The notes under the pieces were generated by a model. The model was not told where the DNA came from, did not search any database, and saw only the letters and a program-made list of their open reading frames with translations. From Branchiostoma floridae (taxonomy: Eukaryota > Chordata > Leptocardii > Amphioxiformes > Branchiostomatidae), in NCBI RefSeq assembly GCF_000003815.2, contig NC_049993.1:3951460-4015459 (forward strand): a stretch of DNA of 64,000 bases, in the 5' to 3' direction. Below, piece after piece: positions 488-62,300 of this stretch; the first letter of the stretch is position 1; the number at the start of each line of letters is the position of its first letter. Both the position numbers and the translations under genes were made by a program.

Positions 488-861
488 TTTCCCAAAGCAC
501 TCCAATGGAGGCTCGAGACTTAATTGAGCTGCAGACATCAATGGGTATGTGTTCTGTGAAGTGATCTGAAGATACGGCGTGCGTTGGCGTTAAAAGAAGT
601 TTGAATAGCTTTTGAAGTTAAAACAATTTTTTATTGAAGAACTATAACCTTTCCCAGGCAATCTTCTTAGCAGCTTAAATGTCTCATAATGTAATATGAT
701 GTTAACATACTTAATAAGTCTGGACACGCCTTGATAGCCTGTCTTATTTTTCTTGTCCGGGCTGAAGCTGGTTTTACAGCCTGAAATCTGTCACTTTGAG
801 CACCAAATTATCAGTTGCTGAGTTTTATTCCCTTCAAAAGAAGAACATTTTAAGAAAAAAT
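488..861. other. 5' flank of the lectin gene, nothing firm
   Basis: This is unique-looking sequence between the microsatellite and the first recognised ATG of the lectin gene. The reading frame of exon 1 stays open upstream of 862 to about 796 but without an ATG, so this is either 5' UTR or the start of a longer exon. No clear TATA box was seen. Confidence 0.4.
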
Positions 862-3800
862 ATGCAGACGGTGAATGAGAAAACTATCTGCGCTGTACCA
901 CGCCTTAACAACGCAGACTGTGAGCCAGAACCTGCGGACTGTGTTGGGACTCATGCCGAGGTGCCTCTCACTATGAACTCTGATCAGGATAGCAACCAGA
1001 CCGATGTTGCAGGGGCAGAAACTCCCATTTCAAATCTGTACGAAGACGCTATGAATGCTGAACAACGAGAAGGGGAAGATGTAGCTCAAGAAAGCTCAAC
1101 GTCGGTTTCAAGCATCTACGAAGACACAGCAAAGAAAGCGGCCGAACCAATGTCAGGGATTTACGTATGTGGAGATTCCGGGGTTTCGTCACGGCTTTAC
1201 GAGAACTCAGAAAAAACGAACAAATCTACTGACGGTAAGGAGTCAGACTCTGTGATTTACCAGGCAGACGGAGTGTTACCTGGTACCATACATGAATCTT
1301 CTCCAAATCAACCAGCAGGTAGGTTCTATAAATTTTGAAAGAGAAATAAATAAGTTAAATGAAGAAGATATTTTATGAAATTCTGAATAAGATGCCTTAT
1401 AAACTGATATCTTTCAAAAACAAACCAAGACAATATTTACAGAATGAGTGAAGGGGGTTAAAAAAAATAGCGTATCGGTGTCCACTTTACCCTAATTTAA
1501 CCCTAAACATTCAACATCTCTACGACTGAAATGACCGAACACAGGCCAAAACCTTTTTTGGGATCATTGTAAATTCTCTGTCAAATAACAGTCAATGCGT
1601 TTTATCACATTTAGATGTGCATCATTCCTGCCCGTTATTATGAATTATGCAAAAAGACCCTTTTTTGCACTGAAGGGAACAGCCGCTGCGACAATTAAAT
1701 TACAATGCTTCAAAAAAACACTACCAGGATCCACTAAATAATGACTTTACATACAATCACCCCTGGGTCCAAAATTGAATTTCCAAAATTCAAATCCAAA
1801 ATTCACCCTGCGAGAACGGACCGTTTTAGTGGTCTGCTTTAACGAATAAACTTACAATTTAACGAATAAACTTACAATTCATTTGTAAGGTTAAATGTAG
1901 AGAATAATGAAACCGCACGCATCGCTTCTACCCGCATTACAGTAAGCTATCCCCATGACCCGTATTGACCTCGCGAGCGCCATGCTGAAATTTCGGGCCG
2001 TCAAAACACAAGCCGAAAAGGCCATCTTCTACCGTGATTTCCCGACAATTATCATTGAAAATCGATGTTGCTACACTTTTGAAAATGACGTGGTCGTCTT
2101 CGGCAATATTTTTATCGCATGCGTTTTGTTGTCGTTCTTATTTTCACCTTTGTGGTTTGGAGAATGTCCCTACTCGACCGGCTGACTCCCCTAGCGTACT
2201 GTATTTACTCTATTTGACCAATTTCTACAATTAGACCACCAAACCACGAAGCCTGGTAGAGGCTAGGATAGTTGACTTGTTTCTGATATATTCATACAGA
2301 GACCCGTTTTTAATTGTATTAGTCCGCAACTGTCATGATATGGTAATTAATAATGAAAAAACGTTTTTTGTGAATATTGTAATTCATTGAATTTGTTTTT
2401 CTGCATACTATAACATCTATTATCATAATACCGGTACGTTTACGACGATTTCTCTAGCCATATTGATTTGACAAATTGTCAACGCATCATTTTCTCCAGT
2501 TACATGTTGCTGTTATAGGGTACCCTTGCCACTTCTTCTGTGTAACTTTTCTGCCACTCTTGTCCTGCTAAAAGCGTAATATTGTAATTGTAACACGCCG
2601 CGGAATTACACGGCGAACGGGCGCGTGGTTGGGAGGGGGTACAAAATACCGGTAGGAAGAAACACGGCACAATTAACTGCCGCTATGTACATTTATACAT
2701 CCTCTGATGTTCCTTCCTTTTCTGTCAGTAAATGCATAAAACATAAACCTGCATGAGCATACAAAATGTCATGAGAAAACGGAAGTATACTGCCAAGAAT
2801 TTTCATTTAACTTCTGTCCGTCACAACCGCTATGACGTAACACTTCACTGCTAGCGTAGATATAAAAATGGCGGGAAAATGGCTGCGTACGTTCAATTTT
2901 GCCCATTCAGTCGTAGATCCGGGCTATTATGCAACGGTTCTTCACACTTTTACATGAGTTGTAGGTCACCAACAGAAATTCAAGATTGTTGTTGAATCAT
3001 GTTCGTCTTGTGCCGTGAGCATGTGTAGTTATGATCTATATAAATTTGGCAATGAATGTGACAGTGTGTTCGTCCCACGACGAGCTGCCTACCCCGAAAT
3101 TTAAAAAAAAGTATACTGAAAACTTTTGGCCTTGTTGTCTTCGAATGCATTGTTATCGATGCTTTGTAAATGGTGTATTGGACACCTAGATGTCTGAAGT
3201 GTGCACAGCTCAGAAATAACTATTGTTGCATGTGTAGATCTCTTTAAGTTCCAGTATTTTTAATCTACCGGTATAAGTCTTACTACCGGTATTATGCCAA
3301 TGCATGTTAGTAGTTTGTAAATTACGGCACAATTCAGTTTTTACTGCAATGCAGTTTGTCTATGTTTTTGTTAATAAACCAATTACTACTTCTACTACTA
3401 CTACTTCTGTTGCTGATTCAAAAAGAAAACCAATAATACTCATACAAGTAAGTTTATTACACCATCAGAGCTTCATGCAGCAAAAAAATGGTTTGAGTCA
3501 TTCTTAACTGTATGTATGTCTTTGAACCTGTAACTAATTGATGGAAAGAATTTGACTGAACTATCAAGGAGGATCTCGATAATGAAAACTAATCTATAAT
3601 CCGTTCTAGGAACAATGAATCAAGATTCCTCAGAAGATTCCAAGAATGACACGGACACTCTTCGCCCAGATGGCCAGGAGAAAAGATCAAAGGGCCACCG
3701 ACACGCATGCGCAGTTGTAAAAGAGGGCATGGACACCCCTGCATATGAGAGCGTGACTGAAGGAGGAAGTCAAGGTTCCTTTGTTTATCAAAATTTCCAT

Positions 3801-13292: not shown

Positions 13293-14715
<1,423 letters not shown>

Positions 14716-17406
14716 AAACACTACATGTTTAGGAGTTTGATTCTAGGACATCTAAGTAAACTCCTTATCCAAACGGATAGCCAGAGTTGTAAATCATTTA
14801 GGTGTAGCAAATGTACAGACTGAATGGGTAAAGTTAGGGAACTGAGGGCAACTCTACAACAGATGTCATATCATGACAAAATCCCCTGGGCTTGAACTTA
14901 CTAATAGACAGAAAACTCCTACAGTCGCCAAACTACCGCCACTGTTTTCGCCTGACGCCATGGAAACACTTGGTAAACACACCGTATACTACCACAAAAT
15001 AGTTGTAATGCAAGTTTTTGCAAATTAAGTAAATAAAAAAAAGATGCCCGGACACCAGTTATTCTAGAGAGACATAGTACTCTAGGAATTTTAATACCAA
15101 TAATGATTTCAAAAATGAGTTTAGAACAATAAGATGGACATGGTTACAATTTGAATTAATATGTCTTATTGTGCAATGATATGGTACTGTTCTATCATAC
15201 TTCACTTACTGTACTACAATCATGTTTTACTACACGAAACAACCCAATTCAGACATTCATTGCAATGGTTGCCTGCAAAGCAGTTCAATTTGTAAATATT
15301 AGATAAACTGCTGATTGCTTTATAGATTAATTAGAGACATTGGTGTGCACAAAAAGGTACAGTAACATACTAGACATTTTCAGAAGAAGAACCGAATGTG
15401 TTATAAAGTAGTTGTCATGAACAATGCATACTTCACCAGCAATTAGTGCAAAGTCAACCGTCTGTCTATTAAAACGAAAATGTAAGTAGATTTCGATGTT
15501 AATTAAGATAGTTAACTCATGGCTTTACAGCACGTTTTTTCGCAAGTTGTGATGAATTTTCAACGATTTAGCAATACACACCGATATGTCAATATGAAAA
15601 AATGTATTGGTGGGAATTTCTAACAATAAACCACATGTAAAACTTTTATGAGGACTAGTTTTAAAAGAACGATGTAGTATTTAAATAATGCTTTTATATA
15701 ACGCATGGCATGATTAAGACATCCAGTAGTAGCCTAAGAGGTTGTTGCCTATCTGTATTATGCTGCATATAGAAAAAAATATGTCATAATCTGAAGTGAA
15801 TACAACACCGCATTTGTCTTATGAACATTTGAGAATAAACCATCTCACAGTTCCATGTGTACATATGCTGTGGTGGTGATTAAGTTCTAAATCTTCTTCT
15901 TCTAGAAACATCAGAACTTAGCAAGTTTTATCTGTTATTAAAAGCTAGGTGGACGAACAATTTTTTTAAACCCAATATTCTTCGTAACCTTGTTTCTTGT
16001 TTGCAAACATAACACTTTTAGCAAGTTATGAGTATGAAAAGTTGAATAGTCTGATGTTGTCTGGTAGAAACGTATTGTGTGAGGTTCGGCCGGACTAACC
16101 TCTCAAAACTCATGACCACAGCATGTTTCAGAACTTGAAATATAAACCCCACTATTTGCAGTACCGTAACAAGCTGCTAGGGGTCCAAAATCTACTCCTT
16201 TCTGGGTCTCATCAAGACCTACCCACATACTAAATATCTATACAGTCCATCTACACGTTCTTGAGTTATGTTGGTCACACAAACATACACACAAACGCTG
16301 CCAAAATATAACCTTCTTGGCGAAGGTAACTACAATACGTTAATAATGGTACCCAACTTATCACTGGGAAAGACCGTGTGCGATAATTTTTTTACACTTC
16401 CCTTGATTGATTCGGCAATATACATAATGGAACCAATTGAATTGAAGTAATATCCGTCTATTGTAGGTAGCCACTGAAATGACTTTCAAACTTTTCATCA
16501 TTTCATCAGAAACTTTTTCCCCAGATAAAAAAAAACATAATTACATGACGTTGACAGCTGTAGTTTGAAAATGAACGTACTATGCATATTCAGGTAACCT
16601 TTATATGAATGACGCAGGTAAAACAGGGAAACATAATCATTCATCAATTTTTTTAGCAAGTCGCTGGTCTCGCATCATTTTCCCCAGGCACCGGTTGAAG
16701 GACGGTAGATCATCCTAGACAACGATTTTTTTGCGTTGTCGCTGTCATACACTTGGAAAGATAGGACATTCAGCAGTCTCCCTATTTCATAGTAGGACAT
16801 GCAGCAAAACGTACAGCTATGATCGTAGTATCCATGACGTGCCAAAAGGCCTCAGCAAAGAAGGTAGAGTAATTTTATTATTTCTCCACTCCTATAGTCT
16901 CATAGAATATTCTTACTTTAGGATATCAAGCCCCATGCAACTAAGGATCACTAAGCCACTAAGTTTCCACAATTACAACTCACCGCGGAACTTTCATAGC
17001 TCTAACATCTGTGCGTAGTTCCCCCTTGAAATAAAACGTATTTTGAGCAGGGAGAGTTAAAATTGATATTGATTTTTAAAATTGATTCTGGAAATCACTT
17101 CTTAAAATATGTAGACCACCAGAGAACCCGGTAGCTAATAAAATCTATGGATCCATAACAAAGCCTAATTATAAAACACTACCAATTAGAATGGTTGACT
17201 TTTAGATTTTAAACTTATCCATTTCTCAATTGAGCCCGAATACCACACATTTTCGAAAAAAAACAGAAAAATGTATTCATATTTGGTATAGAGATTACGT
17301 TATCAATGAGGAGCAAAATGCATTCAGCTGATGATATCTTGTCGTGAATGCTTCCAGAGATGTAGACCGAATATACCCCCTGCAGGTGAGTCATAATAAA
17401 TTGTCG
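14716..17406. other. Intergenic, repeats only
   Basis: No supported gene was found. At 16180-16327 there is a dispersed element ending in the hairpin ACCTTCTTGGCGAAGGT, preceded by CGTTCTTGAGTTATG and ACACAAACATACAC. It has the same layout as elements at 45730-48396 and 53871-54054. At 16365-16560 lies a sequence related to 21110-21345, on the other side of the LRR gene. Confidence 0.5.
16365..16560. repeat. Repeat flanking the LRR gene, left copy
   Basis: It shares GTGTGCGAT, CCTTGATTGA, AAGTAATATCCGTC, CTGAAATGA and ATAATTACATGACGTTG with the stretch at about 21110-21345. The two copies bracket the single-exon LRR gene in the same orientation, with partly different order of blocks. Family unknown. 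Confidence 0.5.
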
Positions 17407-17415
17407 TATAAAAGG
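17407..17415 (+). promoter_or_regulatory. TATA box of the LRR gene
   Basis: TATAAAAGG lies 44 bases upstream of the ATG at 17459, which predicts a transcription start near 17437 and a very short leader. Two ATGs at 17432 and 17436 would fall at or before that start, so they are unlikely to compete. Confidence 0.65.
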
Positions 17416-17458
17416 TTTATATGTAAACAGACATGAATGTTTGTTAGAGAACGCAGCC

Positions 17459-20400
17459 ATGTTGATTTTGCTTCTCTTGGCAGCTGTCTGCTCAGCTTCA
17501 AATAGCCAGAGCTTACCTCCGTGTAGGTTAGCTGCATGGCTAGAGTGTGTGTCTGTCACAGAAAAGCCAGGAATTTCATTCGATGTGAATTCTGGCCCAC
17601 ATATATGTGCCATTTGTGAGGTTCAAGACAAGAGTGTTGCCTCCACAAGTCCTCTCCCTTTCCTTTCTAGGGTCGGATATGTTGCAATAAGAGGATATCC
17701 TTTCCGTGTCCTTTCAGCAACGATCCTGAAACCCCTCAAGCATTTTGAGGTTAACATATTGGCATTGGTAGATGCTAAGATCACTGATGTGGAGAACAAC
17801 ACCTTCGCTGGGTTTTACCGTCTTCAGCAGTTGTCGCTAGATTCTAACGAGCTAACACATGTCAAACAGGGCTGGCTTGTAGGTCTAGAGAATCTCTTGA
17901 CGCTGATTCTGTCCAACAACCACATCAAGAAAATATATCCAGGGAGCTTTGCGAACCTAGCTCGCCTGATCAACCTGAATCTACAGAAGAACCTGTTACA
18001 CGCTGTAGACCCTGGCTGGTTAACTGGACTAACATTTACCAGAGTCATAAACCTGGGGTTTAATAAAATCAGCAGTATTTTCCCAGGATCATTCAAACAC
18101 CTTCCGCTGACCTGGTTAGACCTTAGGTGTAACGATCTGTCGTCATTGGATGGCGATGTAATTTTGGGACAGTCTTCTCCACCAAAACTCCATGTCAGCA
18201 GTGGTATGCTGTCATCTATTCATGATGAAAAGCCACATAGAATGATGTGGAGCCTAAGTAGGTGGGCAGATATGACGAAAGGATTATCATCAGCAACGTT
18301 GGTTGTTAGGGTGCCCAAGTTCCACTTCTGTGTCGAGCAGTACCAAAGCCCTTTGTACGACAGAGCATTCGATAAAGTCTTGTTTCAGTGGAAGTCTGCT
18401 GTCAATCGTAGCACATCATGTAGTAGTTTGGGCCGTACCATCTCCATAGAGGCTCCGGTAGTTGTCTTGGCTACTGACTTTTCTATGGAGGACAAAGTTC
18501 TCCCCAACACGCTTGACCAGTACAGACAGGTTTGGGGATACGATGGGGGTATTTCTGTACCAGTTGGCCCAGTGGGAAGTCCGGCCTTCCGACTGGTTTC
18601 CATGGCTACAGGCAATACGAGTTTTGAAGGCGTCGCCATGTCAGTCATTGACACAAAAGACAGACACAAACCTTCCACTACAGTGTCCGGATGCAGTGAA
18701 AACGATACCAACCATACAAACACCACGCATGGCAATACAGAGAATGTAACCTGCATTTTGCTCACTAAAAATGAACACATCAAGTTGTTCTTCACCGTTG
18801 CCCCGGTCCAATGCCAGCCACACACAACATCAACCAATTACAGAACAAACACTTACCAGACCACGAGCTCGACAAACTACTCTGAGTACACAGAACAAGA
18901 CCACACATCTTTAGAACCTGGAGACAACTCTACACAGCAGATGAGTACCACACCAGGACCAGATGTACCCACAGCAACAGATCATGTTCTCATCTCAGTT
19001 GTTGTCTTGGCAGTGGCCATTCTGGTAGTGTTGGTCCTCCTAGTGTTGGTATGGAAGTTGTACACATCAGGTTTTTGCGCTAAGGACAATAGGGCCAGCA
19101 ACGATGCACACTTTTGGACAATCCCATCTAGCGTTGCCTTCCCCGGCTTGCTGAGGTCGGCTTCCTTCCCTGGCATTTCAAGGAATACCATGTTGGATGA
19201 TGCAGCCTCCTGTAGGTCATTGCCCACTGTCCTTCATTCCATCGAACCTACTTACAGTGAGATTCCTGATGACATAGCAGCTGCTCAGAGGCCTTTGCCT
19301 GGTCTCCTTCACACATATTGGGAGATTCCAGATAACATAGCGGCTGCTCAGAGGCCTTTACCTGGTCTCCCCCACACATACTGGGAGATTCCAGATGCCG
19401 GCATGGTACGGTCAGTTTCTCTCCCTATAGTAAGGTGTATCCACGAGGACACCCGAGGCAGTGCTGCATTACGTAGGTCCTTACCCACGATCTCCCATCA
19501 CCTAGCCAATGCACAGCGTCCTCTGTCTGCCCCATCACACACTTACAGTGAGATACCAGATGATGAGGAGAGCGGACCCGTGCCTTACTATACTGATACT
19601 GCAGATTTTTCACGTCATCATGTTGTCACAAACAGGAGACAGAATCGACGGGCTTGCTCAGATAGCAACACAACGTCCAGCCGACACCTATCTGTAAGAT
19701 TCCTTGCCTCATATGGGTCAAATGAACAGGCTAGAGCCCAGTTAAGCAACATCTACAGAAAGCCTCCAGAGGTCGAGCCCGTAAGAGCCCGTAGACAGCT
19801 GGGGGCAGCTTCTGTGTCCCTGCCTGCTGACCAAGGTTTAGTTACGTACGTCAACGTCACAGATGCTATTCTATCCAGAGGTCAAAATGTCACGGAAGCT
19901 CATTCAGCCTTCCTCACATTGCCTAATGTTGACTGGACTTGGCAGATATTCAGTGAGGGAACACCTTACACACAACGGGATGTGTCCCCTCATGTCGTCA
20001 CACTGCCTAGCACCTACTGGCCATGTGGGATTTCAGGGGAGGGAACCCGTATAACAGGACGTCGCACGTCACTACCTCTCGTCACAGTGCCTAACACTTA
20101 CATGCCATGTGGGATTTCAGGGGAGGGGATCCGTAATACATCGCGGCGCACGTCCCCTCCTCCCGTCACACTGCCTGACACTTATGTGCCATGTGAGATT
20201 TCAGGGGAGGGAACCCGTTTAACAGGACGGCGCACGTCCCTACCTCTCGTCACAGTGGCTAACACCTATGTCCCATGTGAGGTATCAGGGGAGGGAGCCC
20301 GTATAACACCACGGCGTGCGTCCCTTCCTCCCGTCACACTACCTGACACCTACGTGACATGTGAGATTTCAGGGGAGAGAATTCGTGTAGCATCACGGCG

Positions 20401-20668
20401 TGCGTCCCTTCCTGTAGTCACACTGCCTAACACCTCTGTGGCATGTGAGGTTTCATGTGAGAGAACCCATGTAACTCCACATTGTACGTCCCTTTCCACA
20501 CAGCCTAACACCTACTGGCCATGGCATATTCAAGGGCAAAGAACTTATGTAACAGGGTGGCTTACAGTGCCTAACACCTACATGCCATGTGAGATACCTG
20601 GGGAGAGAACCCGAATGACACCCACATTTACATCAGTGGACACATATTGGCCATGGGGTATTCCATAG
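17459..20668 (+). CDS. Single-exon leucine-rich-repeat transmembrane receptor with repeat-built cytoplasmic tail
   Basis: The frame is open from 17441, but the first ATG is 17459, giving 1069 aa. Residues 1-16 (MLILLLLAAVCSA) are a signal peptide. LRRs occupy about residues 90-235, with LSLDSNELTHV and LILSNNHIKKI as clear units. A Cys-containing ectodomain and a Thr/Ser/Asn-rich stalk with many sequons follow. A hydrophobic helix at 510-533 starts VLISVVVLAVAILVVL. The tail of about 535 aa has YSEIPD/YWEIPD motifs at Y599, Y620, Y641 and Y696. From residue 847 it has six exact 28-aa repeats, each with a TY-x-P-C motif and most with RRxSxP, then degenerate copies to the end. No kinase, TIR or death domain is seen. 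Binding partner unknown; a role in recognition or adhesion is inference. Lack of introns and a TATA box fit a compact lancelet receptor family. Confidence 0.88.
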   Translation: MLILLLLAAVCSASNSQSLPPCRLAAWLECVSVTEKPGISFDVNSGPHICAICEVQDKSVASTSPLPFLSRVGYVAIRGYPFRVLSATILKPLKHFEVNILALVDAKITDVENNTFAGFYRLQQLSLDSNELTHVKQGWLVGLENLLTLILSNNHIKKIYPGSFANLARLINLNLQKNLLHAVDPGWLTGLTFTRVINLGFNKISSIFPGSFKHLPLTWLDLRCNDLSSLDGDVILGQSSPPKLHVSSGMLSSIHDEKPHRMMWSLSRWADMTKGLSSATLVVRVPKFHFCVEQYQSPLYDRAFDKVLFQWKSAVNRSTSCSSLGRTISIEAPVVVLATDFSMEDKVLPNTLDQYRQVWGYDGGISVPVGPVGSPAFRLVSMATGNTSFEGVAMSVIDTKDRHKPSTTVSGCSENDTNHTNTTHGNTENVTCILLTKNEHIKLFFTVAPVQCQPHTTSTNYRTNTYQTTSSTNYSEYTEQDHTSLEPGDNSTQQMSTTPGPDVPTATDHVLISVVVLAVAILVVLVLLVLVWKLYTSGFCAKDNRASNDAHFWTIPSSVAFPGLLRSASFPGISRNTMLDDAASCRSLPTVLHSIEPTYSEIPDDIAAAQRPLPGLLHTYWEIPDNIAAAQRPLPGLPHTYWEIPDAGMVRSVSLPIVRCIHEDTRGSAALRRSLPTISHHLANAQRPLSAPSHTYSEIPDDEESGPVPYYTDTADFSRHHVVTNRRQNRRACSDSNTTSSRHLSVRFLASYGSNEQARAQLSNIYRKPPEVEPVRARRQLGAASVSLPADQGLVTYVNVTDAILSRGQNVTEAHSAFLTLPNVDWTWQIFSEGTPYTQRDVSPHVVTLPSTYWPCGISGEGTRITGRRTSLPLVTVPNTYMPCGISGEGIRNTSRRTSPPPVTLPDTYVPCEISGEGTRLTGRRTSLPLVTVANTYVPCEVSGEGARITPRRASLPPVTLPDTYVTCEISGERIRVASRRASLPVVTLPNTSVACEVSCERTHVTPHCTSLSTQPNTYWPWHIQGQRTYVTGWLTVPNTYMPCEIPGERTRMTPTFTSVDTYWPWGIP
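19997..20668 (+). repeat. 84-bp coding tandem repeat of the LRR receptor tail
   Basis: Exact 84-bp periodicity starts at 19997, 20081, 20165, 20249, 20333 and 20417. From 20501 the period breaks and units become shorter, to the stop codon. Each unit encodes a frame such as VTLPxTYxPCEISGEG followed by RRTSLP or RRASLP. The repeats differ by amino-acid changes more than by frame lesions, so the frame is being kept. Confidence 0.9.
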
Positions 20669-28759: not shown

Positions 28760-29484
28760 GTATGTCTTTGAGTGCATCATTGTTATAATTATATGGTTCT
28801 TGGAATCATAAGGACTCTTATGACTATTATGGAGAATTGTAACATCAGGCTTCCAAACTTTTTTTTTTACTTCTTTTCATCAGTGGGCAACCTCAGCTAG
28901 GTTGTGCATGAACAGTTCACGGTGCAGCCAGTCCAATTGTTAAAGGATAGTTAAGTTAAAGTGAGTTGAAAGAATGTGTTGATGGTTTATGGAAATTCAA
29001 ACAAGAAGCCTTCTTTGCTTGGATAGGACTTCTAGACTTGGAACATATGTGATATGGTTGAACATATGCGATTTGTTTGGAGATCATCAATGTTATAGAA
29101 AGGGTTCTCTCTGTACATAATTAGACATGTCATTACATGTATTTATATGTTGTTGGTAAATAGTAATCCATCATACATTGTATTGAAATAGTATTCAATT
29201 TGTTTTCTTTTTCTTTGTTATGGTTGTACTATGAATAAAATAAAAAAAGATTAACGATGGGATGTCAACATAATTTTCGAAAATCTGCCAATCATCAACA
29301 TATTCATAATTATAACGTTTGACTTACACATGTATTCTGGTAGCATTGTGTGCACATAAGAAAGAGAAACTTTTTTATTGTTATTTCGTGATAGATATTG
29401 TCGTCAATAGACGGAAGTAAAAGCTCTAGGATAAGTTTATCTACAACGTACAAATCTTTGTTTCCCAGCAGATAAAATCAGAAG

Positions 29485-30249
29485 ATGGAAGATACCAGCT
29501 GCAGCTCTGGACAACAGATAACAAAGCACACTGGTGGTAAAGCCTACATGTGTGGGGAGTGTGGGTACAGGACAGCTCACAACTCAACCTTTTCCAGACA
29601 CATGAGAACGCACACAGGAGAAAAAACCTTCAAGTGTGACCAGTGTGAATATTCTGCAGCACAGAAATCTGTTTTGGACTATCATTTAGCCAAACACACT
29701 GGAGAGAAACCCTACATGTGTGGGGAGTGTGGGTACAGGGCAGCTAGAAAGTTTACCTTATCCCAGCACATGAGAATTCACACAGGAGAAAAGCCCTACA
29801 AGTGTGAGCTGTGTGACTATTCTGCTGTGAATAAATGTACTTTGCACTACCATCTAAAAGCTAAACACACTGGAGAGAAACCCTACATGTGTGGGGAGTG
29901 TGGGTACAGGACAGCTCACAAGCCAAACTTATCGAAGCACATAAAAACGCATACAGGTGAAAAACCCTTCAAATGTGACCAGTGTGACTATTCTGCTGTG
30001 AGTAAATCCAACTTAGACGACCATCTAAAAGCAAAACACACTACAGTAAAACCTTACATGTGCGGTATCTGTGGATACAGGGCAGCTATAAAGTCTCGCC
30101 TTATTCAGCACATGAGAATCCACACCCGGGAAAAACCCTACAAGTGTGACCAGTGTGACTTCTCTGCAGCACGGAAATCCAGTCTGAACCGTCACTGCCA
30201 AGCTAAACACAGCGTAGAAAACCTACAAATGCCGGTACAAGAAAGCTAG
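29485..30249 (+). CDS. C2H2 zinc-finger protein A, 8 fingers
   Basis: The start ATG follows an acceptor (TTTCCCAGCAG) by 13 bases, giving 254 aa. The leader MEDTSCSSGQQITKHTGG precedes eight C2H2 fingers in strict alternation: odd fingers CGECGYRTA with HMRTH ends, even fingers CDQCDYSAA with HLAKH or HLKAKH ends. HTGEKP linkers join most fingers; two linkers are altered (HTTVKP, HTREKP). All eight fingers keep both Cys and both His. The protein should bind DNA in the nucleus; no KRAB, BTB or other effector domain is present, so the transcriptional effect is unknown. It is the counterpart of the gene at 50297 and a relative of the broken gene at 13293. Confidence 0.88.
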   Translation: MEDTSCSSGQQITKHTGGKAYMCGECGYRTAHNSTFSRHMRTHTGEKTFKCDQCEYSAAQKSVLDYHLAKHTGEKPYMCGECGYRAARKFTLSQHMRIHTGEKPYKCELCDYSAVNKCTLHYHLKAKHTGEKPYMCGECGYRTAHKPNLSKHIKTHTGEKPFKCDQCDYSAVSKSNLDDHLKAKHTTVKPYMCGICGYRAAIKSRLIQHMRIHTREKPYKCDQCDFSAARKSSLNRHCQAKHSVENLQMPVQES

Positions 30250-34500: not shown

Positions 34501-37500
34501 CGCCCGCCTCTACATATTTTATCAATGACTTTCTGCTTGTTAGGCAGTCCTGACTTTATGCCTTATTATCATATAGCCAGGCGCCGCGGACCAATCAGAA
34601 GGCCCCGTTCCACGTTGGTTATGACGCCGTAACACTTAGATTCCGGCCAGGCCGGTGTGTATCCTCCTTCTGATTGGTCAGAATGAATCGACACCGTGAC
34701 TGGAGGCGATTTAGATCGGCCTGCGTACCAGGGAGAAAGCAATTGAACACCGGTGCTGGCACTGGTGCCGGTGTCGATTCATTCTGACCAACCAGCCTGA
34801 GCGATACACACAAGATATGCAGGGTTTGGCCAATCAAAAGGAGCGAAACATATGCCAGAGCAGAGGGAATAAGCACAAACTGTAAGGAGGGAGTAGTTAA
34901 CATTGAGAATGAGTTTTGTTGTTCTAAAAAGCGAAAGACTGCAATGTTTTGAATATTTTCTGTGGAAATTTTGGTTTCAAACTGCATTCTGTAAACAAAT
35001 GTATGTACCAAGGAACAGATGTGAACTTTCAGAAATTCGACAAAGAAATTGACGCGTATAGTACCAAGGGATCTATGCGTCATACAGTAGTTTGCAAGTT
35101 TGGGTAGGCTATATGATAATAACGTTAATAACCCGCCTGTTCCTAGGTGTACATGGTGTCATATCGACTGGTCCTTTGCTATAACCACCTCATAAAACCA
35201 CCGAGTGAGCCAAGCGAACGAGGTGGTTTTATTCGGTGGTTATAGCAAAGGACCAGGCGTTATGACACCATATACACCTCGGGGCGGGTCATTAACCCTT
35301 AATTACAGGTGTACAAATAAACCAAAGAGTCAAGGATTTGTTTTTATCAAATACATGCAGCTTGCTTTTTCTTACAACTACGATGTGCAGTTTGTTTCTT
35401 AAATGAGGGCAGAAGACTAACCTGTTTCCGTGCAACGTCCAAGAAATGAAACAACGTTAGGATGAGTCCCAAGGAGCTTCAGTATTGACAGCTCCTTGAA
35501 AAACGCAGTCAAAGCCGCGGGACTTGTCATACCTAGTAAGCAATAAGAAATCATTTGCATAAATGAACTGTTATCGCTCAATGGCATTGGGATATTCATG
35601 TGTAGAAATTGAATATTTCACACATAAATTGAATATATCACACATCTTATGTATTTGTTGTGCTTTGTAAAGTCCGAGAGTGCTAGCTTCAACACAACAT
35701 AATTAAGAACTAAATTATTTTTTTTTTAGATTAGAATTCCTTTATATTTAGTATTCCAAGCACCTTTCAACTCCTTCACTGCCACAGTAGTTACACCAGT
35801 GTTGCCTGATATTTTCCAGGCCTCGGCTCTATAGACAGTCCCAAATTCTCCTTGGCCAATTTCCTCGTTGATGTCCAGCTGACTTCGCGGGAATTCAGAT
35901 GGCAACTTCAAATCCTCATAGGTTACTTCTGGTGCTCTCTGTATCAAAAGAAAGGTTTCTCGACTCGTCTTGTTAGTGTATAAACAAGCGTTAAAAATAT
36001 ATAACGAATACGCATTGCAAAATATGGAAACATGTAGGAAAGCCGTAGGAAAGCATGTTTCGTTAAAAAGAAGCTTGTTAAGAGTTGAAGAAAAAATGTC
36101 ATACTTCGTTCTCACTGCGTGCCGTCAGCCCCTGGTACGTGTGATTAGACTGTTTAAAAAAAAAACAGAAAATATTATAAGTACATTGGTATTCTTTACT
36201 AGAAGCCTGGAAAACATTTACTGTAAGCAAATTTGATAGACCAATGCTGAAATATATCACATGTACAATGCATAACATCATATACAGAGTAAGGTCGAAT
36301 ACATAAGCTTTTATGTTGCATGTTATTAAATTTTATAACTACTTTGCACATTTATTTGCTTTACTTACTGTGCGCCTATGAGATATCTGCAAACTTTGGT
36401 ACTCGTCTTCCGTATCATGGCGCTAGAAGAAAGTCGTAAACAATCGTGTTCAATTCTTTAGGTTATAAATTGAGAAAAAAAAATCTTTGTTCAGCTGGTA
36501 AATGTTGCATATCAACAGTTGTATTATTTCAAGAAGAAAGCATGAAAAGATGCAAATGATAAGACGAAGTGGTGGCGAGCTTGTATTGAACATATATTAA
36601 AGATAGTTGAAGAATGGAAAGATAAAATATTTGACAAGACCATTTGTAAATGCATCTGGTAAGTGAATATACTAAGAAATACATGAATGTTTGCCATTTT
36701 CGTGTGAACTCAAACAACATTCCAGCAGAAAACAAAGCAAAAAAATTACCTATGTAACTAAAAGCTTTTTATTTCTGATAAATAATCTGCGGATGACATA
36801 AATTTACAAGTAGTTATAAGGACCATATAAAGGTGGGCATTTGCAGAAAAAAAATACAGAAGTTATGAACTGCTCACCACATTCTCCAGCTCCATGTTGC
36901 TTGAGTGGTTTCCCTCGTGTTTTTCTGAAATAGCGATCATCGATATGTACTTATTCAGACATAAAGTTTGACGATATGTACGTGCTTTAATCTATATAAT
37001 ATCTTAAGTTTAGAAATTATTTTACACTTACCATTGGCTGCCCTCTTTCTCCTAACGAACACCACTGCAACTGTGACGATAGCCAAGAGGACCACGGCAC
37101 ATATTGTTGCTGCTATAATGATGGTGTTGGTGTCATTTCCACCTATAGTAATGGACCAACGAAAAATCTCTCTCACAAATCATGTTTCCTATTGATTTCA
37201 AAACAAATTTTGAGCAATATCAGAAATGGTATTAAAAGTAACGTTTTTAAGTAAGCTACTAAGTAAAATGTATATTACTATGATCGGGGCATTGGGTTTT
37301 TTAATGCGTTTTATGCCTGGATTTTTTAGTGCCTTTAATATCATTTATTGATTAGATCTTTCAAACAGAAAGAAATTCAAGCATTATGGAAATAGATGCT
37401 GCCTGTTTTGTTATACATTGTTGCTGGCTATACAGCAAAAATATCGAAAATTTGTATGCCTTGTAAGTGTATGTTTGTTAAAAGGTGAACATGTACCTTC

Positions 37501-49543: not shown

Positions 49544-50296
49544 GTATGTCGTTAAGTGTAAGTGTATCATTGTTATGATTATATTGTTCTTTTAATCATA
49601 AGGAGACTTGTGACTATTATGGATAGTTAAATAAGGCTTCAAAATGTTTTTTTAACAAGGTTGCAGTGGCCAATCTTAGCCAAATACTAGGTTGCACTTG
49701 GACAGTTCAAGGTGCAGCCTGTCCAACTGACAAGGGATAGTTTAGTTAGCAGGAGTTGAAAGAGTGTGTTGATGGTCTACGGAAATTCATACAAGAAACC
49801 TTCTTTGCTAGGACAGGACTTCTGGACTTACCACAAAACATATATGTGGTTTGGTTGGAAAAGATCATCAACATTAGTATAGAAAGGGTGCTCTCATGTA
49901 CATAATTATACATAGCATTACATGTATTTACAAGTTACTGGTAAACAATAGGAATTCATCATAGATAGTATTGAAAAGGTATTGAAATTAGGACAAAGCA
50001 AACATTGCGACATGATTTTTTTATTCAAAAAGCTATTGTTATGGCTGTACTATAAACCAGCCAAAGCAAAATTATAGATGGGATGTCAACATAATTGTTG
50101 AAAATGAGCCACTCATCATCATATTTATGATAATGTTTGACTTACTAGTACACGTGTATCCCAGTGGCATTTCACATTAGAAGGAGAAACTTTAATTATT
50201 ATTTCATGATAGATATAGAAGTCAATAGACCAAAGTAATAGAATAAGTTTATCAGCAACAGACAAATCTTTAATTCCCAACAGATAGATTCAGAAG

Positions 50297-51247
50297 ATGG
50301 AAGATCCCAGCTGCAGCTCTGGACAACATATAGCAAAACACACTGGTGGTAAAACCTACTTGTTTGGGGATTGCTGTTACAGGACAGCTCAAATATCAAC
50401 CTTATCCAATAGCATACAGATGAGACCTCATACAGAAGAAAATCCCCACGAGTGTGACGAGTGTGACTATTCTGCAGCATGGAAGACTGCTTTGGACCAA
50501 CATCAAGCAAAACATACTGGAGAGAAACCCTATGTGTGTGAGACGTGTGGATACAAGACGGCTCACAAGTATAAATTATCCCGGCACTTGAGAACCCACA
50601 CAGGGGAAAAACCCTACATGTGTGGGGAGTGTGGGTACAGGGCAGCTCTCAAGTCTACATTATCCCGGCACTTGAGAACCCACACAGGGGAAAAACCATA
50701 CAAGTGTGGGGAGTGTGGGTACAAGGCAACTAGACAGTTTACCATATCCCAGCACATGAGGACTCACACAGGGGAAAAACCCTACAAGTGTGAACTGTGT
50801 GACTATTCTGCTGTGAATAGATCTACTTTAGATTACCATCTAAAAGCTAAACACAATGGAGAGAAACCCTACATGTGTGGCGAGTGTGGCTACAGGACAG
50901 CTCACAGGCCAAACTTATCGAAGCACATAAGAACTCATACAGGTGAAAAACCCTTCAAATGTGACCAGTGTGACTATTCGGCTGTGAGTAAATCTAACTT
51001 AGAGAACCATCTAAAAACAAAACACACTACAGTAAAACCCTCCATATGTGGGGAGTGTGGATACAGGACAGCTATAAAGTCTCACCTTACTCAGCACATG
51101 AGAACCCACACAGGGGAAAAACCTTACACGTGTGACCAGTGTGACTATTCTGCAGCAAGGAAATCCAGTCTGAACCGTCACCATCAAGCTAAACACAGCG
51201 GAGAAAACTTACAAACACAGGTACAAGAAAGCTATATCCTTCCTTAA
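50297..51247 (+). CDS. C2H2 zinc-finger protein B, 10 fingers (first degenerate)
   Basis: The start is in the same position after the acceptor as in gene A; product 316 aa. The leader MEDPSCSSGQHIAKHTGG matches copy A. Finger 1 has lost its first Cys (YLFGDCCYRT) and has a stretched His region, so it should not fold. Nine intact fingers follow. Relative to gene A there are two additional fingers near the front (CETCGYKTA and CGECGYRAA types), which breaks the strict alternation for three consecutive G-type fingers. The C-terminus extends VQES by YILP because the stop codon of gene A is replaced. Nuclear DNA binding is expected, with a longer and different site from gene A; no effector domain is visible. 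Confidence 0.88.
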   Translation: MEDPSCSSGQHIAKHTGGKTYLFGDCCYRTAQISTLSNSIQMRPHTEENPHECDECDYSAAWKTALDQHQAKHTGEKPYVCETCGYKTAHKYKLSRHLRTHTGEKPYMCGECGYRAALKSTLSRHLRTHTGEKPYKCGECGYKATRQFTISQHMRTHTGEKPYKCELCDYSAVNRSTLDYHLKAKHNGEKPYMCGECGYRTAHRPNLSKHIRTHTGEKPFKCDQCDYSAVSKSNLENHLKTKHTTVKPSICGECGYRTAIKSHLTQHMRTHTGEKPYTCDQCDYSAARKSSLNRHHQAKHSGENLQTQVQESYILP

Positions 51248-59300: not shown

Positions 59301-62300
59301 ATTGTCGGATGCAAATATGATGCTGTATCTGATCTCACCATTGGAACCAGAGTCTGGGTCTGTTGCAACCACCTGTAATCAGGTAGACATTGTTCCATTG
59401 TTTCAATCTGCATACTAGTAAGATTGACTCGTAATGTGCTGGATAAAGCAATATATTTCAAAGTACATGAAGATTAAACATCCAGGTAATAGGATATGCC
59501 AGAAAGCAGTTACTCAGGCAACTGGATATGATTTTGGAAACGATTTTGGAAACATCCAAAGTACGTGAAGTCTTTAAAAGTTTTAAAAACTATCCGAATT
59601 TTGTTGCTTTATTCTCAAGGAGGCAAGACAAATTTGAAATGTTAGGAATCTTTGGTAATTTAGATATTCCTAAAATAATGTTTTGCATGCTGAAAGCACG
59701 ATCAGTTTCGTCTAAACCAGTTGATGATGTAAAATATGTCGATATGCTTATGCATCCCTAAAAGAGTTTCGAGAAGTCAAGAAGGTTTACCTGTGTTAAT
59801 ACAGCTCCATTCGCTGCATCCTGTGCCACATTTGCATGGTAGATTTCGGCGGTGAATGTTGGATTGTTATCGTTCTCATCCAACAGTGTGATGAGAACAG
59901 TGGAGGTGGGGCTGCGGTACTTCTCTGTTGTATTTGTTTCAACCACATAAACCTGGATATCATAAGAGAGATTATCAATTATGAGAGCAACCAAATAGTT
60001 AATCCAGTTATTCCCATCCCTGGTCAATATAGTAGAAAACGTCGAGAATTTTACTACCATCACAAATCTGCTCGTGTTATTTTTTTTTACTATAAATTTT
60101 ATACTTATCTTACAAAAGAGTCGCTGAACGTAGCAGTTAATGTAAAATTGTTTTGGTGTTTTGGGTGTAAAATGAAATTAACTACGAGTAAAGCTAAACA
60201 CCTATTACATACAGCTTTACAGCTTTGAAGGGAACAATGTAACATTGAAGCTACGTTTCACATACAATTGGTTGCTACCACAACAGTGCATTCCTGATCT
60301 CGTTGTATCTTATATAGAGCGATTTTGATGCATATGTTATCATAATGAATGTGAAAAAATACATGTTTTGTGTACCTGTAGTGTGAACTCGTTGTTTGTC
60401 TCCCTGTCCAGGATACTGCTGTTACTGACTGTGACTTGACCAGTCGTGCCATCAACGGTGAAGGCAGCAGATGGTTCCAGCACATACATGAACATGGCAT
60501 TTCCTCCCTGGAAATTTTAACGTCTGGTAAGAATATGCTATATGTCCTTTCTTGAATATCATACTCTTAAAATGGCAGTTGTCATTTAATATTCTATCTC
60601 AATCAATGGAAATTGGAGGTTTTGTTTTGGTGTGTCAGTATGTGTTTGTGCTTGTGTGCCTGTGTGTGTGCGTGTATGTGTGTGTGTGTGCCTTTCTGCC
60701 TGTGTTGCCGCAAATACATGGTTAGCAATAACTCCATAACGTCTAGATCAACGCTATGGATCTAGACGTGATCTAAAAGGACAAGCATCAGCAGCACTCG
60801 CTAAACTCAGCCCCATCCTCCAGAACAAGAACATCAGTCTGCCAGTCAAGATCAAACTGTACAGAACACTTATAGTCTCCATCTTCCTCTATGGCTGCGA
60901 AACCTGGACCACCACGGCAGAAACAGAGCGCCGCATAGAAGCCTTCGAGATGAAATGCCTGCGAAAAATCCTCGGCATTTCCTACCTGCAACGCCAGACA
61001 AACAGGTCTGTACGCCATCAAGCAGAGGCAGCATGTGGCAAGCAAGAACCACTCCTGTCGACAGTCAAGCGCAGGAAGCTGAACTGGTTCGGCCACATCT
61101 GTCGACACAACTCCCTTGCTAAAACCATACTACAAGGCACAGTAGCAGGAGGGAGGAAACGAGGTAGGCCAAGGAAGACGTGGCTGGACAATATCAAGAC
61201 ATGGACTGGCCTACGTACTGAACAGCTCATCAGAGGGGCAGAGGACAAAGCAAGATGGGCACGGATCACTGCTACTGGATGTCGGGGAGCCCCTACGACC
61301 ACCGAGGGTACGGGCCGTGAGTGAGTGAGTGTCTAGATCAAGTGTAATATCTGCTATGGATAGATGTTGACAAGATGAAGGCGAATGTCGACTTTGGCCT
61401 TCCTACTGTGTGGCCATGAACTGCAGCAGAACATCTGGTTTTTGTATCTTTTTTTTTCTTGGTAATATTATTGTCTATTTTGGAGGCAGATATTTTTTGA
61501 TGAATGAAAAAAAAAGATTGGTGATGGCTTTGGTTTGGCAACCTGATCTGGAACTGAAGCTTTTTGCTGGAATCTTTCAACAAGGTTAATTGAACAATCA
61601 CATCGGAATTCCATGATTTTCGATATGCAGGTAGTCTAGACAAAGTGCACAATATGAATCAATTTGCATCATGAATGAGGATAGTTGATATATGATTATA
61701 GTAACCTCTTTCCAATGACTTTCATTACTACATGTAACGTATTTGACAGTTGAAACATATAATAACAGAAAATAGCAACAATGTCAAAAATGGCCTCATT
61801 TGTATAATCAATGTAAAATGTATTAACTGTTTCGAAACGCTAACTGCAAAGGAACAAGATACTCATTGCATAACATGTTAGATAAGATATACTTCCTCCT
61901 ACCTCATCCTTGTCTGACGCTGTGACAGTGAGTACAGGAAAACCACTGGGGGTATTCTCCACCACTGTTGCCTGGTACTGGCTGGCAGACATCTCTGGTC
62001 GGTTGTCATTCGCGTCTTGAACAACGATGTACACACGAGCCTCTGCTGATCTGACATTGTTGTTTGCCTGTTCTGCCTAGTTAACCAATTGTGATAAAAT
62101 CTGAGATTATTACTTTTTGTTTGTTACTGTCCAAGTTTATCAACAGAATGTCGTATTTACAAAGTAGTTAACAGGTTCTTAACACGTATTTAAAGGTGAT
62201 TGTGATTTGTAACTATACTGAGTCCATATCATATTACAAATCGTAGCTGTGCAATATCTGATATTCTAATGTGTATATGGGTACCTAGTATCATTCATTG

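Follow-up and report, generated by a model that had tools for sequence, protein, structure and literature searches.

Tandem tyrosine and 14-3-3 type motifs in the cytoplasmic tails of a lancelet leucine-rich repeat receptor family

Several described systems resemble the receptor tail analysed here; the following holds for the available sections of the cited papers. BbLcLRR of Branchiostoma belcheri (MW390887) is a leucine-rich repeat (LRR) receptor that binds lancelet Lck and is phosphorylated by it; its tyrosines Y539 (DDYATV), Y655 (HDYSEV) and Y690 (HDYDDP) were mapped in human cells, where the protein has a damping effect on T-cell signalling and binds SHIP1, with weaker binding of SHP1/2 (PMC8211107; immunoreceptor tyrosine-based inhibitory motifs, ITIMs, are counted there by a Tyr and an aliphatic residue at +3). 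FAK presents Src with the SH3 site RALPSIP near Y397 (PMC6528292), GPIb, likewise an LRR receptor, uses its tails to bind 14-3-3 zeta (PMC8976409), and RSXpSXP is the 14-3-3 mode I motif (PMC6770128). The present analysis concerns a window of 64,000 nt of the Branchiostoma floridae genome (GCF_000003815.2, NC_049993.1, forward strand, 3,951,460 to 4,015,459) and, within it, an LRR receptor gene whose tail carries motifs of these kinds together with a 28-aa repeat array. The array had been noticed in a sequence-only reading of the window; the feature is real, more widespread and differently centred than first read.

Organization of the window gene and its tail

A single open frame, established from the list of frames and their translations, extends over 17390-20668 (+); from its start Met at 17459 it encodes 1069 aa with a hydrophobic N-terminus, LRRs, a Thr-rich stalk and, after a single membrane span, a tail of about 530 aa. 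This is the plan of BbLcLRR (LRR ectodomain, one span, Tyr-bearing tail), and the receptor tail with paired Tyr and RRxSxP sites that had been proposed is present and in frame. An AlphaFold2 model of the protein (25 alignment rows; mean predicted local distance difference test score, pLDDT, 35.6; predicted template modelling score, pTM, 0.30) resolves only the LRRs and a weak membrane helix and leaves the tail unmodelled. Such low confidence is compatible with disorder and no proof of it; the cytoplasmic tail is probably disordered. The features as far as the array are the following.

17459..20668 (+): single-exon LRR receptor gene, 1069 aa plus stop (open frame, Met, Pfam LRR_8 with E 5.8e-30)
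17750..18178 (+): leucine-rich repeats, about aa 98-240 (LRR_8 in three stretches; sole stretch of the AlphaFold2 model with pLDDT of at least 70)
18986..19066 (+): membrane-spanning helix, aa 510-536 (AlphaFold2 helix, block pLDDT 37-54; hydrophobic run in the translation)
19154..19171 (+): RSASFP, 14-3-3 mode I type site, aa 566-571 (R566, S567, S569 and P571 invariant in 25 aligned paralogs; pN/pS 0.08)
19211..19225 (+): CRSLP, aa 585-589 (C585-P589 invariant in the 25 aligned; pN/pS 0.05)
19250..19273 (+): TYSEIPDD, Src-SH2-type YxEI site, aa 598-605 (Y599 invariant in the 25 aligned; pN/pS of EPTYSEIPDD 0.31)
19286..19333 (+): QRPLPGLLHTYWEIPD, SH3 plus SH2 type module, copy 1, aa 610-625 (pN/pS 0.25; Y620 invariant in the 25 aligned)
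19349..19396 (+): QRPLPGLPHTYWEIPD, SH3 plus SH2 type module, copy 2, aa 631-646 (tandem repeat, motif scan)
19409..19426 (+): RSVSLP, second 14-3-3 mode I type site, aa 651-656 (motif scan; pN/pS 0.26)
19538..19564 (+): HTYSEIPDD, YxEI site, aa 694-702 (pN/pS 0.07; near the HDYSEV Lck site described for BbLcLRR in the available part of PMC8211107)

Here pN/pS is the ratio of the proportions of nonsynonymous and synonymous differences. The better-conserved signal is formed by these proximal motifs, which lie upstream of the array. The feature had been placed at 19997..20668, where an array is indeed found, and its motif-bearing part begins about 840 bp earlier, with RSASFP at 19154; the SH3/SH2-type module, upstream of that interval, had been overlooked. 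The array had been called close to a 14-3-3 pattern, an understatement, since the upstream RSASFP and RSVSLP fit the mode I sequence RSXpSXP as given in the available text of PMC6770128 and can be regarded as putative 14-3-3 ligands. Both copies of the module are covered by a 63-bp tandem repeat at 19259-19396 (Tandem Repeats Finder), and in QRPLPGLPHTYWEIPD an SH3-type RPLPxLP adjoins a Src-SH2-type YxEI.

Src SH2 domains prefer pYEEI, Src SH3 domains bind peptides of the RPLPPLP type, Y397 of FAK has an SH2-binding role, and RRxS fits kinases of the PKA type. The Src-family SH2 ligand type Y-x-E-I occurs at Y599, Y620, Y641 and Y696, each time as YxEIP. The Src-family SH3 class I core [RK]xxPxxP is present in copy 2 (RPLPGLP, aa 632-638) and absent from copy 1, which reads RPLPGLL. 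RPLPxLP was reached in 0 of 5000 shuffles of the window tail. Three other motif classes were considered and ruled out. Canonical ITIMs, with [ILV] or S at -2 and [ILV] at +3, do not agree with the P or H found there in the four proximal YxEI sites, nor, in the array, with the C or W at +3 of Tyr-keeping units; the looser rule of a Tyr with an aliphatic +3 alone does hold for the proximal sites. An immunoreceptor tyrosine-based activation motif (ITAM) consists of two Yxx[LI] 6-12 residues apart, and the YxEI sites at aa 599, 620 and 641 have 17 residues between them. A Crk-SH2 substrate domain (YxxP) is likewise at odds with C or W at +3 in the Tyr-keeping array units.

The array itself is detected by Tandem Repeats Finder as an 84-bp period at 19984-20475 (5.9 copies, 78% matches) and divides as follows.

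19934..20008 (+): degenerate first unit, aa 826-850 (profile match)
20009..20428 (+): five 28-aa units with Tyr and RRxS, aa 851-990 (Tandem Repeats Finder, translation, profile, motif scan)
20429..20494 (+): sixth unit with both sites lost, aa 991-1012 (profile match)
20495..20665 (+): C-terminal cap ending in TYWPWGIP, aa 1013-1069 (identity among branch members)

Six exact units had been claimed, which is correct for the spacing (TY at aa 852, 880, 908, 936 and 964, with the NTS of the sixth unit 28 aa further) and not for the sequence: only units 1 and 3 (2/6) carry the complete TYxPC[EG]I and RR[TA]SLP, the deviations being RRTSPP in unit 2, CEV in unit 4, VTC in unit 5 and NTSVAC...PHCTSL in unit 6. 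Tyr is kept in five of the six units and RRxS likewise in five. In the 539 aa from VWKLY onward there are five RR[TA]S (shuffle mean 0.06) and seven R[RS]x[ST]xP (shuffle mean 0.18), numbers equalled in 0/5000 shuffles in both cases; these shuffles ignore tandem duplication and exclude only a composition effect. At the end of the protein, mean pairwise identity among seven branch members is 0.77 in the last 78 aa versus 0.61 in the preceding 152 aa, and aa 1013-1069, judged by sequence, is a C-terminal cap common to near paralogs and not a further regular repeat.

The receptor family in one genome

The search covered one genome, the B. floridae assembly of 513 Mb in 431 contigs. The full protein as query gave 43 loci after clustering, the proximal tail 220 matches and the array 186 matches; clustering of the listed matches yielded at least 75 proximal loci, at least 70 array loci, at least 62 with both and at least 81 in total. 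The sequence-only reading had pictured the array in one receptor, an idea that these matches of the full protein, the proximal tail and the array rule out. Copies lie on the contig of the window, on the same strand, at 3.86, 3.90, 3.93 (two), 3.94 and 3.97 Mb. In the literature on single lancelet LRR receptors, as far as PMC8211107 and PMC10199209 could be consulted in part and with subscription literature outside the scope, no account of this tail was found.

Array units occur in 31 of the 32 loci L001-L032, and the common family unit is NTYWPWEIPGEGTRNTPRRASLPLVTLP. In the window gene, L002-L006 and L008 the WPW of this unit is largely replaced by xPC or xQC; these loci, grouped by the units that they share, are taken here for a putative derived branch. 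Nine array loci have no proximal match nearby in the clustering. Three of them (L038-L040), read by eye, are LRR receptors of the same plan whose diverged proximal tails keep RPLP and YxEIP; arrays on unrelated proteins are thus ruled out for these three by eye reading, with no Pfam run. The tail of L036 (C12:18183500-18188000) contains five tandem 21-aa QR[PT]LPGLPNTYWEIPD modules, one reading RTLP, and about five copies of a further Tyr-bearing repeat, SYSKQSVDRLLQTYGVARGD. An apparent giant array (a 5559-aa open frame at C262) was discarded, as it spans an N stretch (296 N in L033). Separately, L030 (C15:3940947-3945584) is a paralog cut off directly after the membrane span; a matching tail lies about 2.4 kb past its ectodomain on the same strand (C15:3946510-3947484), and an intron or insertion may separate the two.

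Motifs were scored in main open frames of at least 780 aa among L001-L032 (L033-L040 are outside this set), after dropping L010, which is split by stops, and L030, cut short as described. RSxSxP, RPLP and YxEIP-type (Yx[EDQ][IVL]P) sites were each found in 30/30 scored paralogs, and RRxSxP in 27/30, the main frames of L007, L015 and L025 being without any. The proximal tails of paralogs carry RSASLP, CRSLPAVL, SIEPTYSEIPDD, AAAQRPLPGLPHTYWEIPDD, a second RSxSLP and HTYSEIPDDEESGP. The predicted SH3 ligand is assigned on the exact form of the motif and its presence in all scored paralogs. Among 25 members, pN/pS was 0.19 in the 52 pooled motif columns versus 0.57 in the 258 other proximal columns, a contrast that is partly built in because the columns were chosen after viewing the alignment, 0.47 in the LRRs and 0.69 in the stalk; individual proximal motifs ranged from 0.05 to 0.31, at pS of 0.26-0.53. 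The window gene belongs to a large lancelet family of single-exon LRR receptors. This family, the motifs in its tails and the constraint on them among paralogs can be regarded as established at the level of sequence, and so can the turnover of the repeats.

When the profiles of the 21-aa and 28-aa modules were compared, AQRPLP.LP.TYW aligned with ASLPLVT.PNTYW at a score of 17.1 (100 column shuffles reached at most 14.8; probability only 19% over 13 columns). This is suggestive of a common origin of the two modules, which is not claimed.

Proposed working of the tail and its alternatives

We propose, at what we judge to be even chances, that the tail acts by docking of a Src-family kinase and by 14-3-3 bridging, with copy number setting valency. 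The model draws on precedents (PMC6770128, PMC6528292, PMC8211107 and PMC8976409) and on the ligand preferences given above. A lancelet Lck/Src-type kinase would bind RPLPxLP by its SH3 domain and the adjoining phosphorylated YxEI by its SH2 domain; such two-site docking, as thought for RALPSIP and Y397 of FAK, would open the kinase and hold it on the tail, where it would phosphorylate the remaining YxEI sites and perhaps the array Tyr of each unit. The phosphorylated tyrosines would then recruit SH2 proteins, for example phosphatases of the SHP or SHIP type. A separate basophilic kinase would phosphorylate RSxSxP and RRxSLP, and dimeric 14-3-3 would bridge two or more of the phosphorylated serines. 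The copy number of array units and of 21-aa SH3/SH2 modules would set valency, so that duplication and loss of units would tune signal strength receptor by receptor.

The constraint acting on the array was analysed in 11 of the 28 columns, those taken from the motif text of the sequence-only reading; columns of our own choice (window, 0.18 and 0.37 versus 1.64) had been picked after looking and were dropped. These motif columns vary less in protein sequence than the remaining 17: pN/pS was 0.44 versus 1.51 in the window (6 units), 0.58 versus 1.05 in the window's branch (48 units) and 0.32 versus 0.72 in the rest of the family (177 units), figures that are descriptive, unit pairs not being independent. 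In the rest of the family, equally low pN was reached by 212/20000 random 11-column sets. Outside the window's branch, the coding frame of 141 gap-free units gave 0.53, compared with 1.23 and 1.17 for the two remaining forward frames and 1.15, 0.67 and 1.10 for the reverse frames; the value of 0.67 is attributed to shared third positions. Among the scored units, 98% have Tyr in the Tyr column and 86% keep the Ser of RRxS, in a unit profile that was seeded with TY-bearing units and favours them; codons are mixed at these kept sites (TAC/TAT for Tyr; TCC/TCT/TCA/TCG for Ser).

A number of observations weigh against the docking model. Random 11-column sets had equally low pN in 1259/20000 cases in the window and 889/20000 in the branch. 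For the window's branch (33 units), the coding-frame value of 0.83 cannot be distinguished from those of the other forward (0.90, 0.88) and reverse frames (0.85, 0.77, 0.82), and three gap-free units of the window gave 0.67 in the coding frame, 0.62 and 1.52 in the other forward frames. By the frame controls (0.53 versus 0.83), the array is under constraint in most of the family; in the window's branch, taken as a whole, it is relaxed. Of the whole-unit ratios of nonsynonymous to synonymous rates (dN/dS) within arrays, which begin at 0.21 (L018) and are 0.54 for all 225 units pooled, those of the window (0.90) and of L005 and L008 (1.07, the highest) count against the model; the window array is among the less constrained. 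When the window gene was compared with 16 paralogs, values were 0.51-0.85 for the array, 0.36-0.62 for the proximal tail and 0.38-0.69 for the ectodomain.

Other adverse observations concern frame and motif. Units lie off the main frame in 10 of the 32 loci (L007, L009, L010, L015, L016, L023, L025, L026, L028 and L032). A stop at a Tyr or Trp codon ends the arrays of L009, L011, L021, L023 and L031, and whole in-frame units follow it in L009, L011 and L023. Individual units are therefore dispensable or decaying, as is a large part of the array in some genes. The sequence-only reading had named repeats frame-broken in other individuals as evidence against itself; frame breaks are found, in paralogs and not in other individuals. 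The generic [RK]xxPxxP shows no enrichment in the tail of the window gene (one match; 1975/5000 shuffles reach one). The weakest step of the model is the function of the array tyrosines, which mostly come after N-T (97% of the scored units have the N, and two window units have D instead) and whose YxP[CW] fits no SH2 class that we can name. The phosphorylation and binding of tail sites are themselves what we infer from the motifs.

The same observations bear on the alternative that the 28-aa array is a coding minisatellite, which would expand by unequal exchange and have little function, only the proximal tail mattering. In agreement with it, the 156 full units are more alike within arrays than between them (nucleotide identity of 0.830 versus 0.741), pN/pS in the window's branch resembles that of other frames, units lie off the main frame in nearly a third of the loci, and in-frame units persist past stops. 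The best match lies in the unit's own array for only 73/156 full units. Nevertheless, the coding frame is constrained outside the window's branch, and Tyr and Ser persist while their codons change; we regard this explanation as doubtful.

The docking model must also be weighed against an inhibitory-receptor tail, in which the YxEI tyrosines would recruit SHP/SHIP-type phosphatases, the SH3 and 14-3-3 type motifs being secondary. HTYSEI is close to the mapped HDY655SEV of BbLcLRR, which recruited SHIP1 and, less, SHP1/2 (PMC8211107), and YSEI and YWEI would pass the looser ITIM rule used in that paper. Yet the P or H at -2 of all four YxEI sites departs from the canonical ITIM, and the strongest constraint falls on CRSLP, HTYSEIPDD and RSxSxP, two of which are not Tyr sites; it appears unlikely that such recruitment is the main role of the tail. 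Very improbable, finally, is a role in trafficking, whereby RR-type motifs would retain the receptor in the endoplasmic reticulum until phosphorylation and 14-3-3 binding, and repeat number would set surface level and not signalling: RRxS units with a P two after the Ser, mode I type sites near the membrane and the 14-3-3-driven release from retention of other membrane proteins speak for it, but the constrained Tyr and SH3-type motifs would be left unexplained.

Neighbouring sequences and known systems

Several further features were observed in the window. A 190-aa open frame with five Tyr motifs (NLYEDA, SIYEDT, GIYVCG, RLYENS and VIYQAD) resembles a further Tyr-rich tail exon and has no Pfam match at 0.01, and the start of a tyrosine kinase domain preceded by VTYEDL appears, by eye, to belong to an exon of a receptor-type tyrosine kinase gene.

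766-1335 (+): the 190-aa Tyr-rich open frame
35726-36121 (-): the tyrosine kinase domain start (PF07714, E 1.2e-4, 21.9 bits, just below the cut-off of 23.1)
13555-14715, 29476-30249 and 50288-51247 (+): three C2H2 zinc-finger arrays with coding repeats of 84/168-171 bp (Pfam run on 13555-14241 only)
60740-61324 (+): open frame that by eye resembles the last part of a reverse transcriptase from a retroelement (no Pfam match at 0.01)
59758-60177 (-): by eye, a cadherin-like stretch (no Pfam match at 0.01)

Lancelets are a standard outgroup for vertebrate immunity. If the docking model is right, they would possess a receptor repertoire that is specific to their lineage and shares the kinase logic of vertebrate immunoreceptors; repeat number might serve to tune it. 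A more speculative extension, which we hold to be rather improbable, is that some 80 LRR receptors draw on a few modules (the 21-aa fused SH3/SH2 ligand, the 28-aa Tyr plus 14-3-3 unit and the further Tyr repeat of L036) whose copy number is shifted by unequal exchange, giving a heritable signal gain per receptor and perhaps per animal. Such a repertoire would be akin to families of paired activating and inhibitory receptors, but tuned by repeat number. The motifs define peptides for binding: QRPLPGLPHT-pY-WEIPDD, LLRSA-pS-LP and RRA-pS-LPLVTLPNTYWPWEIPG, and also QRPLPGLPHTYWEIPDD, SIEPTYSEIPDD and LLRSASLPA.

Among known systems, p130Cas and Sin combine repeated Tyr substrate sites with a bipartite Src-binding site, and their YxxP repeats bind Crk; the lancelet array differs in reading Y-x-P-[CW]. 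We know of no repeat array in GPIb-IX and of no comparable gene family for it. GPIb-IX resembles the window protein in being an LRR receptor; several places in its cytoplasmic tails bind 14-3-3 zeta (PMC8976409), and such binding is predicted for the lancelet tail. With FAK the tail shares a proline-type Src-SH3 motif followed by a Tyr; FAK, in the sections of PMC6528292 available, has one copy, its Tyr comes 22 residues after the SH3 stretch 363-375 and it is a kinase and not a receptor, whereas in the lancelet tail two residues separate SH3 motif and Tyr and the module can be tandem (two copies in the window gene, five in L036). BbLcLRR is likewise a lancelet LRR receptor with one membrane span and tail tyrosines that include HDYSEV, similar to HTYSEI here; it differs in its 699 aa, a SMART-predicted WSC domain and three mapped tail tyrosines, and repeats are not mentioned in the available text of PMC8211107. 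Judged by its sequence, the tail would belong to a known kind, the multivalent phospho-scaffold tail, here on an LRR receptor, of which it appears to be a new variant.

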